From Actinomycetospora straminea (lineage in GTDB: Bacteria; Actinomycetota; Actinomycetes; Mycobacteriales; Pseudonocardiaceae): a DNA stretch of 64,000 nucleotides. The translations under genes were made by a program, and so were the position numbers. Of the stretch, positions 27,583 to 33,461 are shown one piece after another. Within the stretch, counting starts at the first letter, position 1; each line of letters begins with the position of its first letter. The stretch is from NCBI RefSeq assembly GCF_028737255.1, contig NZ_JAQZAN010000013.1, forward strand, positions 62,001-126,000, given 5' to 3'. The notes beneath the pieces were generated by a model, which ran no database searches, had not been told where the DNA came from, and was given only the letters and a program-made list of their open reading frames with translations.

Positions 27583-27710
27583 GTCCGTCGGACGCCGGGT
27601 AGTCCCGGCCCGGTCCGTCGAGCCGCGGGCGCCGCCCGAGCGCGGGGCCCGCCCTCCGCCCCGGGGTCCAGCCCCGCGCTCCGGGACGTCGCCATACGGC
27701 GGCCAGGTCC

Positions 27711-27740
27711 GACCGTGCCCGACCGTGCCCGACCGTGCCC
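27711..27740. repeat. Short tandem repeat, 3 x 10 bp
   Basis: Three exact copies of GACCGTGCCC in the 188-bp gap before the acyl-CoA dehydrogenase-like gene. It ends 31 bp before the GTG start, within the likely promoter or leader. Function unknown. Confidence 0.8.
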
Positions 27741-27770
27741 GCCGCTGCCGCCGGCCCCCGAGGAGAGTCC

Positions 27771-28733
27771 GTGACGCCACCCGACGCGGTCCGGCCCGTC
27801 CTCGCCCGGTTCACGACGTCGCCCTCGCCGCGCGGTGACGGGCGCACCCGGCACAACCTCGGCGTGCTCGCCGCCGCGGCCGCCGACGACCTCGACGTCG
27901 CGCGCCTCGCCGAGGCCCACCTGGACGCGCTGACGATCCTCGCCGAGCTCGGCGGCCGGGCCGCGCCGCCGGACGCGTGCTGGGGCGTCTGGGCCGCCGA
28001 GCCGCCGGGCGTCGAGGTCCGCGCCCGCCGCGAGGGTGACACCTGGTGCCTGACCGGGCATAAGCCCTTCTGCTCGGGCGCGGCCGGACCGTGCACGCAC
28101 GCGCTGGTCACCGGGCACGCCGACGACGGCCGGCGGCTCTTCGCGATCGACCTCGCCGCGCCCGGGATCGAGGTCCGCGCGGGCGAGTGGCAGGCGCTGG
28201 GCATGCGCGGCAGCGCCGCGGCCACGGTCGACCTCACCGACGTCCCGGCCGTCGCGGTCGGCGGGGCGGGCGCCTACCTGGAGCGCCCCGGGTTCTGGCA
28301 CGGCGCGATCGCCGTCGCCGCGGCCTGGTACGGCGGCGCGGTGGGCGTGTCCGCGCCGCTGCGCCGCGCCGGGCGCGAGGGGCGGCTCGACGACCACGGC
28401 CGCGCGCACCTCGGTGCCGTCGACGCCGACTTCGCCGCCGCCCGGGCGCTGCTGCGTGCCGCCGCCGCGGTCCTCGACGACGAGCCGCCCGGGTCGTGGC
28501 GCGAGGAGCGGCGCCGGGCGCTGCGGGTCCGCGCGGTCGTCGAGACGGCCGTCGAGAGCGCGCTGCGCCGCACCGGGCGTGCCCTCGGTCCCGGCCCGCA
28601 GGTCCGCGACGCCGACCATGCCCGCCGCGTCGCCGACCTCGAGATCTACGTCCGGCAGAGCCACGCCGAGCGCGACCTCGCGACCCTGGGCGAGCTGGCC
28701 GGCGACGCCGACGAGCAGGACCTCCTCCCGTGA
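27771..28733 (+). CDS. Acyl-CoA dehydrogenase-like protein of the PIG-L/NodS/GT operon
   Basis: A 320-residue flavoprotein-like enzyme, shorter than standard acyl-CoA dehydrogenases (about 380). The beta-domain elements are seen (GDTWCLTGHKPFCSGAAG at about residues 87-104, LGMRGSAAATVDLTDV near 143-158). The C-terminal helices end with YVRQSHAERDLATLGEL. The usual FEGTNQI catalytic-Glu segment is absent. GTG at 27771 has a GAGGAGAGTCC ribosome site. Its TGA overlaps the next start (GTGA). It may oxidise an acyl chain or another CH-CH bond of the product made by the operon; this is inference. Confidence 0.82.
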   Translation: MTPPDAVRPVLARFTTSPSPRGDGRTRHNLGVLAAAAADDLDVARLAEAHLDALTILAELGGRAAPPDACWGVWAAEPPGVEVRARREGDTWCLTGHKPFCSGAAGPCTHALVTGHADDGRRLFAIDLAAPGIEVRAGEWQALGMRGSAAATVDLTDVPAVAVGGAGAYLERPGFWHGAIAVAAAWYGGAVGVSAPLRRAGREGRLDDHGRAHLGAVDADFAAARALLRAAAAVLDDEPPGSWREERRRALRVRAVVETAVESALRRTGRALGPGPQVRDADHARRVADLEIYVRQSHAERDLATLGELAGDADEQDLLP

Positions 28734-29473
28734 CCGGCCCGTCACTGAAGGGCCGGGGGACGCCCGAGGACGTGTGGTGGGGCCCGGGCGGGCTGGGCAC
28801 GGTGCCCGTCCGCGACCCGCTCGCCGTGCGCCCGCCGGGCCGGGTCGTCGTGGTCGCCCCGCACCCCGACGACGAGGTGCTCGGCGTCGGCGGCTCGCTC
28901 GCGGTGTGGGCGGCGCACGGCACGCCGGTGCTGGTCGTCGCGGTCACCGACGGGGAGGGCTCGCACCCCGACAGTCCGACGCTCGCGCCCGCCGAGCTCG
29001 CCGAGCGGCGCGCCGAGGAGCGGCGCGCCGCGCTGGAGGTGCTCGGGATCGAGGCCGTGGTCGACCGGCTCCGGCTCCGCGACGCCGCGGTCGCCGCCGA
29101 CGACGTCGCCGAGCGCCTCCTCGCCGTCCTCGACCCCGGCGACACCGTGCTCGTGCCCGTCGCCGGCGACGGCCACCCCGACCACGACGCCACCGCCGAC
29201 GGCGGCGCCGCCGCGGCCGCGCGGGTCGGGGCCGCGTGCTGGCGCTACCCGGTGTGGCTGTGGCACTGGGCGCGCCCGGGCGAGGTCGCGCTCGAGGGCG
29301 CGCGGCGCCTGCCGCTGCCCGGCACCGCGGTCGGCGCGAAGGGCGCGGCGATCGACCGCTTCACCACGCAGGTCGCGCCGCTGTCCGACGACCCGCGCGA
29401 CGCCGTCGTCCTGTCGCCCGAGGTGCTGGCGCGCTTCCGGCGCGACGTCGAGATCGTCTGGGGGCCCGCGTGA
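28730..29473 (+). CDS. PIG-L family zinc-dependent N-deacetylase
   Basis: A 247-residue LmbE/PIG-L deacetylase. VVVAPHPDDEVLGVGGSLA at about residues 40-58 holds the His/Asp metal ligands and the catalytic Asp; GDGHPDHDATADG near 145-157 gives the third His. Family members remove acetyl from GlcNAc-type sugars (PIG-L, MshB) or related N-acyl groups. Start GTG at 28730 overlaps the previous stop, and its own stop overlaps the methyltransferase start, both as GTGA. No signal peptide, so it acts in the cytoplasm, probably on a nucleotide- or lipid-linked sugar. Confidence 0.92.
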   Translation: MTGPSLKGRGTPEDVWWGPGGLGTVPVRDPLAVRPPGRVVVVAPHPDDEVLGVGGSLAVWAAHGTPVLVVAVTDGEGSHPDSPTLAPAELAERRAEERRAALEVLGIEAVVDRLRLRDAAVAADDVAERLLAVLDPGDTVLVPVAGDGHPDHDATADGGAAAAARVGAACWRYPVWLWHWARPGEVALEGARRLPLPGTAVGAKGAAIDRFTTQVAPLSDDPRDAVVLSPEVLARFRRDVEIVWGPA

Positions 29474-30078
29474 GCCTGTCGTCCGAGTACTTCGACGAGC
29501 TCTACGCCGCCGACGCCGACCCGTGGGGGATCGAGCGCGGCTGGTACGAGGAGCGCAAGCGCGCGGTCGTGCTCGCCGCGCTGCCCCGGCCCCGCTACGC
29601 GCGGGCGTTCGAGCCCGGCTGCGCGGGCGGGTCCCTGTCGGTGCCGCTGGCCGCGCGCTGCGACGAGCTCGTCTGCTGGGACCCCGCGCAGCGCGCCGTC
29701 GATGCGACCCGGGCCCGGCTCGCCGACCGGCCGCACGTGCGCGTCGAGCAGGGCGCGCTGCCGCCGCGGACGCCGGACGGGACGTTCGACCTGGTCGTGG
29801 CCTCGGAGGTCGTCTACTACCTCGACGACGCCGACCGCGCCGCGTTCTGGGACGCCGTCACCGAGCGGCTGCGCCCCGGCGGGCACCTGCTCGCCGTGCA
29901 CTGGCTGCGTGAGGCGCCCGAGTACCCCGTCGAGGGCGGTGCGGTGCACGACGAGCTCGCCGACCGGCCCGGGCTCGCGCGCGTCGTGCGCCACGACGAG
30001 GCCGACTTCCGCCTCGAGGTCTACGCGCGGACGCCCCCGGAGCCGCGGTCGGTGGCCCAGGAGACGGGCCTGCGGTGA
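29470..30078 (+). CDS. NodS-type class I SAM-dependent methyltransferase
   Basis: A 202-residue Rossmann-fold methyltransferase. The N-terminal YFDELYAADADPWGIERGWY and motif I AFEPGCAGGSLSVPLAARCD are typical of the NodS family, whose founder N-methylates the deacetylated end of Nod factor. Later motifs are FDLVVASEVVYYLDDADRA and LRPGGHLLAVHWLR. It is coupled on both sides by GTGA overlaps. In some actinobacteria the deacetylase and this methyltransferase form one fused protein, which supports action on the same substrate. The acceptor (amine or hydroxyl) is unknown. Confidence 0.88.
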   Translation: MSLSSEYFDELYAADADPWGIERGWYEERKRAVVLAALPRPRYARAFEPGCAGGSLSVPLAARCDELVCWDPAQRAVDATRARLADRPHVRVEQGALPPRTPDGTFDLVVASEVVYYLDDADRAAFWDAVTERLRPGGHLLAVHWLREAPEYPVEGGAVHDELADRPGLARVVRHDEADFRLEVYARTPPEPRSVAQETGLR

Positions 30079-30860
30079 GCCTGCCCCTGATCGGCGCCGT
30101 GGTGCCCGCCCACGACGAGGAGGCGCTGCTCGCCGAATGCCTCGACGGCCTGCGCGTGGCGGCCGGCGCGGTGGCCGACCGCGCCCGGGTGCGCGTGCTC
30201 GTCGTCGCCGACGCCTGCACCGACGGCACCGCCGAGGTCGCCCGGGCGGGCGGGGCGGACGTGCTGCTGCTCGGCGCCCGCAACGTCGGGTGCGCGCGGG
30301 CGGCGGGGGCGGCCGCGCTGCTCTCGGCGTACGAGCCCGCCGGGTGGCTGGCGACGACCGACGCCGACTCCGTGGTGCCGCCGGACTGGCTCGCCGCCCA
30401 GCTCGGGGCGTGGGAGGCGGGCGCCGCGGCGTGGGTGGGCACCGTCGAGGTCCTGGACTGGGCGGGCCTGCCGCGGGCGGTCCACGCGCGCTACCGCGCG
30501 CAGTACGACGACCACGGCGAGGCGGGCGGGCCGGGTGATGCGCACCGGCACGTCCACGGCGCCAGCCTCGGCGTCGCCGCGGCCGCCTACCGCGCCGTCG
30601 GTGGCTTCCCCCCGCTCGCCACCGGGGAGGACGTGGCCCTCGTGGCGCGCCTCGACCGGGCGGGGCTGCCCGTCGTCCGCGACGGGGCGCACCCCGTCGC
30701 GACGAGCGCCCGCACCGACGGCCGGGCCCCGGACGGGTTCGCCGGTCACCTGCGCGGGATCGTCCGGAGTGTGTTCACCGCGCCATCGGGTAGTCCCCTC
30801 GGGACCCCGTGCCCGGAGGCACGGCGCGGGGACAGCGGCCCGGCGGCGCGCATCTCCTGA
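30075..30860 (+). CDS. Family 2 (GT-A) glycosyltransferase
   Basis: A 261-residue GT2 enzyme. The nucleotide-sugar fold starts with IGAVVPAHDEEALLAECLDG; the metal-binding DAD is in ATTDADSVVPPDW near residues 94-106; HVHGASLGVAAAAYRAVGGF near 155-175 and the GEDVALVARL motif near 180 complete the acceptor side. No clear membrane helix, so it likely works on the inner face or in the cytosol. It is the last gene of the four-gene run, starting with a GTGA overlap. A hairpin (30910-30947) follows 50 bp after its stop. Confidence 0.9.
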   Translation: MSLPLIGAVVPAHDEEALLAECLDGLRVAAGAVADRARVRVLVVADACTDGTAEVARAGGADVLLLGARNVGCARAAGAAALLSAYEPAGWLATTDADSVVPPDWLAAQLGAWEAGAAAWVGTVEVLDWAGLPRAVHARYRAQYDDHGEAGGPGDAHRHVHGASLGVAAAAYRAVGGFPPLATGEDVALVARLDRAGLPVVRDGAHPVATSARTDGRAPDGFAGHLRGIVRSVFTAPSGSPLGTPCPEARRGDSGPAARIS

Positions 30861-32346: not shown

Positions 32347-32685
32347 TCAGAAGCCGGCGGGGTCGCTGACGGTCGTCTCGTAGGTGCCGTCGGCGTCGGT
32401 GTCGACCGCGCCGCTGTCGAAGTCGCCGTCGCCGTCGGTGTCGACCACGACGGTCTCGCCGTAGCCGTCGCCGTCGGTGTCCACGACGCCGGTCTCGAAG
32501 GTGCCGTTGTGGTCGGTGTCGGCGATGACGGTGTCGACCGCGCCGTTGCCGTCCTCGTCGGTGGCCACGGCGTCGACGTTGCCCTGGGCGTCGACGTGGT
32601 AGGTGCCGGCCACGGAGCCGTCGGCGTTGTAGACGGTGCCGTCGGCGGCGAAGTAGCGGTCCCCGGCGGTGGTGTCGGCGCTCAT
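32347..32685 (-). CDS. Acidic protein with DxDxDG (calcium-binding-type) repeats
   Basis: A 112-residue, very acidic protein with about seven repeats of a D-x-D-x-(D/N)-G-x-x-E unit at a period near 10-12 residues (for example DTDGDGYGETVVVDTDGDGD). This is the calcium-loop pattern of thrombospondin type 3, dockerin or EF-hand repeats. There is no signal peptide, so it appears cytoplasmic, which is odd for such repeats. The lead residues YFAADGTVYNADGSVAGTYH suggest a related but degenerate unit. ATG at 32685 has a weak ribosome site. Function unknown. Confidence 0.75.
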   Translation of the reverse strand: MSADTTAGDRYFAADGTVYNADGSVAGTYHVDAQGNVDAVATDEDGNGAVDTVIADTDHNGTFETGVVDTDGDGYGETVVVDTDGDGDFDSGAVDTDADGTYETTVSDPAGF

Positions 32686-32819
32686 GATGTGCTCGCTCTC
32701 GGTGAGGATCGGTGCCCGGTGTGGTGGGCGTTCGAACCTCTGACGGTGCGGGCGGGCCCGGATGTTCCGCGTCGAGCAGGAAATTCTCTGTGCTCGCCGG
32801 CGGTGACCGACCGTGAGCA

Positions 32820-33461
32820 TCAGTCGTCGTCGTCATCGTCCCGGTCGCGCAGGCCGCCCTGGGCCGCCTCGGCCGGCGTCACGACCTCCACCGAGCCGAA
32901 CGCGCCGTCGGCGACGACGAGGACCTCGGGCAGCGTCATCCCGTTCGGCGGCGTCTGGCAGGCCGCCGCGCAGCGGGTGCTCCCGAAGATCATCGCCCCG
33001 CTGGTGCGCGCGACGGTGCCCGGCGGCACGACGACCTCGGTCCGCCCGAACAGGGTCGCGACCTCCACCTCCCCCTGGCCCTGCGCGACCGACACGGTGC
33101 GGTTGCCGAAGACCGCGGCGCCGTCGTCGGCGGTGACGAGGTTGCCGCCGACGAACAGCGCGACGCCGGCCAGCACGATCGGCACGATCGCCCTGCCCAC
33201 GCGCTGGTGGACGGGCGTGTGCGCCACCGGGGCCGGGCGGTCCTCCGTCGTCGCCGGCGTCCCCGCCGACCCCGTGCCCGGCGGCAGGTCGGCGACCAGG
33301 ACGTCGAGCTCGCGCTGCGTGCGCGCCGCCCAGCACTGCCGGGTGCGCTCGTCGTACTCCACGAGCGTGAGCACCCCGTCGTCGAGGGCGATCCGCAGCC
33401 GGTCGTCGGTGGCGCGTCGCTCGCGGTCGCCGATCCGCATCTCCGGGGGCTCGGCGCTCAT
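32820..33461 (-). CDS. DUF1707 domain membrane protein with LiaF-like C-terminal half
   Basis: A 213-residue protein. Residues about 8-55 are a DUF1707 domain (MRIGDRERRATDDRLRIALD, EYDERTRQCWAARTQRELDV). One membrane helix lies at about 100-118, and the rest resembles the cell-wall-active antibiotic response (LiaF/DUF4097-type) beta repeats (VFGNRTVSVAQGQGEVEVAT, LFGRTEVVVPPGTVA). It ends in a run of acidic residues DRDDDDDD. ATG at 33461. Likely envelope-associated; function unknown. Confidence 0.83.
   Translation of the reverse strand: MSAEPPEMRIGDRERRATDDRLRIALDDGVLTLVEYDERTRQCWAARTQRELDVLVADLPPGTGSAGTPATTEDRPAPVAHTPVHQRVGRAIVPIVLAGVALFVGGNLVTADDGAAVFGNRTVSVAQGQGEVEVATLFGRTEVVVPPGTVARTSGAMIFGSTRCAAACQTPPNGMTLPEVLVVADGAFGSVEVVTPAEAAQGGLRDRDDDDDD

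Follow-up and report, generated by a model that had tools for sequence, protein, structure and literature searches.

A translationally coupled four-gene cassette shared by distant bacteria and its possible role in making an N-methylated amino-sugar conjugate

The window considered here, a stretch of 64,000 nucleotides from the genome of Actinomycetospora straminea (contig NZ_JAQZAN010000013.1, positions 62,001 to 126,000), contains four overlapping genes predicted to encode an acyl-CoA dehydrogenase (ACAD)-like protein (gene 1), a PIG-L deacetylase (gene 2), a NodS-like methyltransferase (gene 3) and a GT2 glycosyltransferase (gene 4). With a probability of roughly 0.5, these genes are read as a single translationally coupled cassette, found in distant bacteria, whose product would be a small N-methylated amino-sugar conjugate serving in stress protection. 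A preliminary description of this DNA had placed the four genes at 27771-30860, with a GTGA overlap at each of the three junctions; the coordinates and the overlaps were both reproduced (Table 1), and the order of families given there was matched by Pfam and NCBIfam profiles. In all four genes the start codon is GTG. The same three 4-base overlaps are found, by our own gene calls, in Actinomycetospora lemnae, the closest named relative among the matches listed (92% identity in gene 1). Across 12 hand-picked loci, the window included, an overlap of exactly 4 bases was seen at 24 of 36 junctions, a count in which a few junctions are those of a cassette gene with a flanking gene.

The distribution of the cassette was considered in a series of homology searches, with families scored within 5.5 kb and on the same strand. 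A search with gene 1 only returned at least 49 loci, and all four families were found together in 35 of the 49 listed, representing several orders of Actinomycetota, Pseudomonadota and Acidobacteriota; four other loci carried further subsets. Among relatives, 25 of 29 loci (the window among them, some truncated at contig ends, and with weak matches and a second place in genome G025 excluded) held the complete set, as did 9 of 16 hand-chosen loci from a plasmid collection, two of which are the same Deinococcus radiodurans locus. Annotations in that collection presented the full or nearly full set in Kitasatospora, Cupriavidus, Comamonas, Acinetobacter, Novosphingobium, Sulfitobacter, Bradyrhizobium, Pandoraea, Paracoccus and Komagataeibacter. 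A phylum survey of 296 Actinomycetota genomes yielded 31 with a strong gene 1 match, of which 30 were examined (G223 was not extended), and 11 of these 30 loci were complete. No relative was detected in a scan of viral contigs.

In the same 296 genomes, gene 1 was found in 31 and the NodS-like methyltransferase, sought with a separate profile, in 33. Both were present in 29 genomes, as compared to the 3.5 expected (hypergeometric P = 1e-33), a value to be read with the proviso that many of these genomes fall into one family (f32) and so are not independent. In each of the 29, the two genes lie no more than 1.5 kb apart on the same strand; at the thresholds used, two genomes had gene 1 without the methyltransferase and four the methyltransferase without gene 1. 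The gene order varies, being ACAD-PIGL-MT-GT2 in Actinomycetospora and many Pseudomonadota, GT2-ACAD-PIGL-MT in Rhodococcus, Gordonia and Paracoccus, and PIGL-MT-GT2-ACAD in Edaphobacter (MT, methyltransferase). In D. radiodurans and Deinococcus wulumuqiensis, gene 1, PIG-L and methyltransferase homologs are present with other genes in between, while in a cyanobacterial case, a Nostoc plasmid (L132:2895-5567, plus strand), the same three are consecutive and the GT2 gene lies on the opposite strand. The preliminary description had named a neighborhood search for the four families as a check, with scattered homologs as the contrary outcome; the opposite was observed, in that the families travel together. 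That the four genes are chance neighbors or an artefact of sequence reading is refuted by these adjacency counts, since adjacency, overlaps and gene orders are kept across phyla and no point in favor of such an explanation was found.

The best argument for de-N-acetylation as the shared step comes from the deacetylase. The gene 2 product scored 84.9 bits against Pfam PIG-L (cut-off 28.2), its HPDDE and HxDH motifs are invariant in the 24 PIG-L members aligned, and its solved relatives are mostly amino-sugar deacetylases, namely, diacetylchitobiose deacetylase, teicoplanin pseudoaglycone deacetylase and MshB. The phylum survey revealed 17 loci with gene 1 and the methyltransferase but without PIG-L, 16 of which also contain GT2. 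In a locus found separately, from Rubrobacter indicoceani (L090), an annotated polysaccharide deacetylase lies directly 5' of the cassette genes. A profile built from this protein found a same-strand match in 16 of the 17 loci (the exception being L170), and also picked up rhizobial NodB (L127 and L129). Considering all 95 loci (of 104) with gene 1 and the methyltransferase, with G115, one of those 16, and the R. indicoceani locus counted as one, 75 have PIG-L only, 16 (R. indicoceani and 15 others) have the NodB type only, none has both and four have neither. As one slot is thus filled by two unrelated deacetylases, the shared step would be de-N-acetylation.

The gene 3 product was matched in Pfam by Methyltransf_12 (51.2 bits) and by NodS (PF05401; 44.4 bits, above the gathering cut-off of 24). 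NodS was also the best of ten NCBIfam models matched, at 60.5 bits vs. 27.6 bits for the next, a score that falls far below the cut-off of 300 for the NodS equivalog NF041650. In a search of the PDB, an unnamed methyltransferase (4isc; E = 3.4e-46) came first, followed by solved NodS (E = 3.3e-12). The window methyltransferase also retrieved rhizobial NodS, with DP and E-x-x-Y residues being common to both. A natural fusion was encountered in Gloeothece (L088:2955-6431, plus strand), where GT2, NodS-like class I methyltransferase and polysaccharide deacetylase parts form one protein of 1,158 residues (Pfam NodS, 72.5 bits); unlike the cassette, this stretch has no ACAD-like gene and its deacetylase is of the NodB type. 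In a tree of 107 rows, rhizobial NodS was positioned inside the cassette methyltransferases on a long branch, but a clade of the other 99, without NodS and the cyanobacterial fusion, was not rejected (p-AU = 0.284), and the nesting is not taken as established.

As for the glycosyltransferase, the gene 4 product scored 50.8 bits against Pfam Glycos_transf_2 (cut-off 23.3), adopts a GT-A fold in the predicted model and belongs to a group in which the DAD and ED motifs are present in 19 of 19 GT2 members. NodC was not among the six NCBIfam models matching this 261-residue protein, all of which represent other families and scored below cut-off.

The gene 1 product scored 29.8 bits against Pfam Acyl-CoA_dh_M, just below the cut-off of 33.3. 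The preliminary description had called this protein short and lacking the catalytic-Glu segment. Shortness was borne out at the N-terminus, whereas the segment cannot be said to be missing, given how the predicted model shows the ACAD fold up to the C-terminus, with residues 1-312 aligning to 68-409 of 7xp7. According to this model, then, the protein is short at its N-terminus and the C-terminal, catalytic-end segment is present. What appears to differ is the residue found there. S297 and G178 are taken by us to occupy the MCAD-type and IVD-type catalytic Glu places, as assigned from motifs and not from structure superposition; the former was Ser in 37, Cys in two, His in two and Glu in none of 41 aligned members, and the Gly was kept in all 41. 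PDB sequence matches include DszC, methanesulfinate monooxygenase and nitrososynthase, together with dehydrogenases; class D flavin monooxygenases match by sequence profile, yet in fold comparison ACADs tie with them. These observations bear on an explanation in which an acyl thioester is the substrate of the ACAD-like enzyme and the acyl product is joined to a sugar through the remaining cassette genes. Although the fold is that of such enzymes, Glu is absent from its presumed place throughout the alignment, the PDB matches are not confined to dehydrogenases and the four cassette genes include no acyltransferase, such that acyl-chain chemistry is considered improbable.

Variations on gene 1 and its surroundings were noted. 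In two Deinococcus loci (L124:1202-3541, minus strand, and L086:448-2820, plus strand), the gene 1 homolog is fused to some 400 N-terminal residues with no Pfam hit; this extension gives the impression of resembling a retaining glycosidase, with NEI and ETG stretches. In Rubrobacter (L090:5576-6778, plus strand), an extra ferredoxin-reductase-like flavoprotein is encoded between the methyltransferase and GT2 genes, perhaps serving as electron donor to the ACAD-like enzyme.

In the proposed course, the GT2 enzyme would use a nucleotide donor to place an N-acetyl-amino sugar on an acceptor, PIG-L (or the NodB-type enzyme in Rubrobacter-type loci) would then take off the N-acetyl group, the NodS-like enzyme would methylate the freed amine using S-adenosylmethionine as methyl source, and the ACAD-fold protein would carry out a flavin oxidation, probably other than ordinary acyl-CoA dehydrogenation. 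The proteins would act on a glycoconjugate. We infer the donor and acceptor, the order of steps, the methylation of N and not O, the reaction of the flavin enzyme, the substrates and product, and whatever part the cassette may have in the stress response of this strain.

This scheme recalls the core of Nod factor synthesis (NodB, NodC and NodS), as the preliminary description had suggested. Both assemble a GT2 enzyme, a de-N-acetylase and a NodS-family methyltransferase in one locus, and the cassette deacetylase is even of the NodB type in the 16 loci described above. In most loci, the window included, that enzyme is instead PIG-L; moreover, the cassette adds an ACAD-fold enzyme, has no symbiosis genes beside it and encodes a short GT2 without the membrane part that NodC has. 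No NodA-type acyltransferase was found among the ten window genes profiled. With neither NodA nor NodC matched, the likeness is one of logic only, and the cassette is not a Nod factor system.

A second parallel is offered by mycothiol and bacillithiol synthesis, in which glycosyl transfer precedes the deacetylation of an amino sugar by a PIG-L enzyme. A pathway of this sort to a thiol or redox buffer, in which the glycosyltransferase and PIG-L build a glucosaminyl core that is later methylated and oxidised, would fit with the PIG-L protein being related to BshB and MshB (the NCBIfam models of both were matched, below cut-off) and with the catalase genes found near the cassette in some loci. 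Still, MshA and BshA belong to family GT4, as opposed to the GT2 of the cassette, which further adds a methyltransferase and a flavoprotein. Nor is a cysteine ligase (MshC or BshC) encoded among the four cassette genes, the rest of the genome not having been searched for one. It is quite improbable that the cassette serves such a pathway.

Where a recurrent context exists, it is stress defence. By tblastn, 17 of 104 loci, from many genera and including that of the query, have a KatE catalase nearby. In two flank scans covering 116 proteins chosen from 26 of the 49 loci, with flank genes called approximately by a codon-usage script, catalase was the commonest family, with eight proteins as compared to four for the next among the families listed. 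Catalase_C, the domain that marks catalases of this kind, gave no more than 19 matches when 41 whole genomes of relatives were scanned; 10 were strong, two of which (G025 and G026) adjoin gene 1. In Comamonas endophytica (L033:3439-8407), otsA and otsB flank the cassette, with the genes tightly packed. The cassette is itself present in an Acinetobacter baumannii record (L125). In that species, ACICU_02432-02435 are annotated as a glycosyltransferase, a SAM-dependent (S-adenosylmethionine-dependent) methyltransferase, an LmbE protein and an acyl-CoA dehydrogenase-related protein (PMC5660220), that is, the same four annotations, in the order expected of the cassette if it is read from the other strand. 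According to the expression table of that article, where the set appears without discussion in the portions available and where a shared letter e is taken to mark an operon, these genes are down 31- to 62-fold in colistin-dependent mutants, as are also trehalose-6-phosphate synthase, its phosphatase and catalase (PMC5660220). That catalase and trehalose genes accompany the cassette at some of the loci suggests a compound that protects against desiccation or oxidative stress.

The A. baumannii mutants, however, probably lack normal lipopolysaccharide, and the decrease can also be read in terms of an explanation in which the target is a glycan or glycolipid already present on the cell surface, the amino sugar being added, deacetylated and methylated there with no free small molecule being made. 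Gene neighborhoods in two further organisms are in line with this: the Novosphingobium cassette is directly preceded by three other glycosyltransferase genes, and the Deinococcus proteolyticus methyltransferase is adjoined by UDP-galactopyranose mutase and glycosyltransferases, gene 1 and PIG-L being missing there. By contrast, hydropathy reveals no membrane-like stretch in the four window proteins, and no flippase, polymerase or ligase was seen in the flank scans among the best 25 families of 98 and of 92. On balance, surface decoration is deemed less likely than a small conjugate.

Several observations weigh against a stress-protective conjugate made by one conserved unit. KatE was not seen in 87 of the 104 loci, the A. 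baumannii setting is confounded by the probable loss of normal lipopolysaccharide, and the six profiled neighbors in the window (RidA, TetR, amidase, STAS, a deaminase and one unmatched) include no stress-defence gene. No SigF-type promoter pattern was found 5' of the window cassette in a scan of ten upstream regions, this one included, with six further Rhodococcus-type loci lying outside the scan. Of the 49 listed loci, six miss only GT2 and four hold gene 1 alone; of the latter, two are distant ACADs of Rokubacteria, a third (L081) lies where its contig ends and the fourth, from Janthinobacterium (L053), has no partner. Conversely, two plasmid loci found with the methyltransferase, from Paraburkholderia (L091) and D. 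proteolyticus (L133), have the methyltransferase and GT2 in a stretch without gene 1 or PIG-L, and most of the remaining methyltransferase matches in the plasmid collection, among the 60 listed of 157, were rhizobial nodS. Neither deacetylase is present in the four loci mentioned above, one of which (Cupriavidus, L032) has PIG-L on the opposite strand some 3 kb away. Finally, the cassette has no known product, substrate or mutant phenotype. The remark in the preliminary description that the set has no described product in actinobacteria stands insofar as full-text literature searching, judged from titles, counts and abstract openings, returned no description of one; the set is not, however, particular to actinobacteria.

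Four candidates were set aside. SigF-type patterns 47 bases before the estimated cassette (GT2) start in Mycobacterium (L076) and at 217 bases in L042 were too weak and had no chance control. A LigD-type ligase near the cassette in 9 of 104 loci included five Rhodococcus/Rhodococcoides hits at 26-30% identity together with the locus of the query, and was not used. A1S_1376-1379, first thought to be the A. baumannii cassette, proved to be other genes, among them a regulator and one for the isovaleryl-CoA dehydrogenase that acts in leucine breakdown. Mycobacterium smegmatis MSMEG_1097, a SigF-dependent GT2 gene (PMC4694148; also listed in PMC5445863), could not be linked to the cassette and was dropped.

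Table 1. Coordinates of the cassette genes and associated features in the window.
Feature	Position	Strand	Basis
Gene 1, ACAD-fold flavoprotein-like enzyme, 320 aa; short at the N-terminus, apparently without the canonical catalytic Glu	27771-28733	+	Profile, alignment, model
Gene 2, PIG-L/LmbE-type de-N-acetylase, 247 aa; metal motifs HPDDE and HxDH intact	28730-29473	+	Profile, alignment
Gene 3, NodS-like class I SAM methyltransferase, 202 aa	29470-30078	+	Profile, PDB matches, tree
Gene 4, GT2 glycosyltransferase, GT-A fold, 261 aa; motifs DAD and ED preserved, hydropathy without a membrane-like stretch	30075-30860	+	Profile, alignment, model
GTGA start/stop overlap, gene 1/gene 2	28730-28733	+	Read from sequence
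GTGA start/stop overlap, gene 2/gene 3	29470-29473	+	Read from sequence
GTGA start/stop overlap, gene 3/gene 4	30075-30078	+	Read from sequence
GAGGAGAG, ribosome-binding-site-like, 5' of gene 1	27760-27767	+	Read from sequence

Elsewhere in the window, three tandem 10-base copies of CGACCGTGCC were seen just 5' of the cassette (27710-27739); the doubled unit had no second site in the window when up to two mismatches were allowed. The gap between the amidase gene and the cassette contains a 14-base inverted repeat with a 22-base spacer (27635-27684), possibly a terminator. An acidic repeat protein rich in Asp and Thr, without a Pfam match, is encoded at 32347-32820 on the minus strand. The genome from which the window comes contains 12 PIG-L family matches.

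That the compact cassette is kept together across phyla and that one of its enzymes can be replaced by an unrelated protein expected to have the same activity are strong evidence that the pathway is real and as yet undescribed. It is tentatively proposed that this pathway yields a widely shared and so far unrecognised stress metabolite, an N-methylated and perhaps oxidised amino-sugar conjugate, in bacteria of three phyla or more (Deinococcota and Cyanobacteriota having partial sets), and that it may represent a free-living counterpart, perhaps even the source, of the decoration steps of Nod factor synthesis. If NodS-type chemistry is older and wider than symbiosis, then the cassette would bear on the origin of Nod factor decoration.

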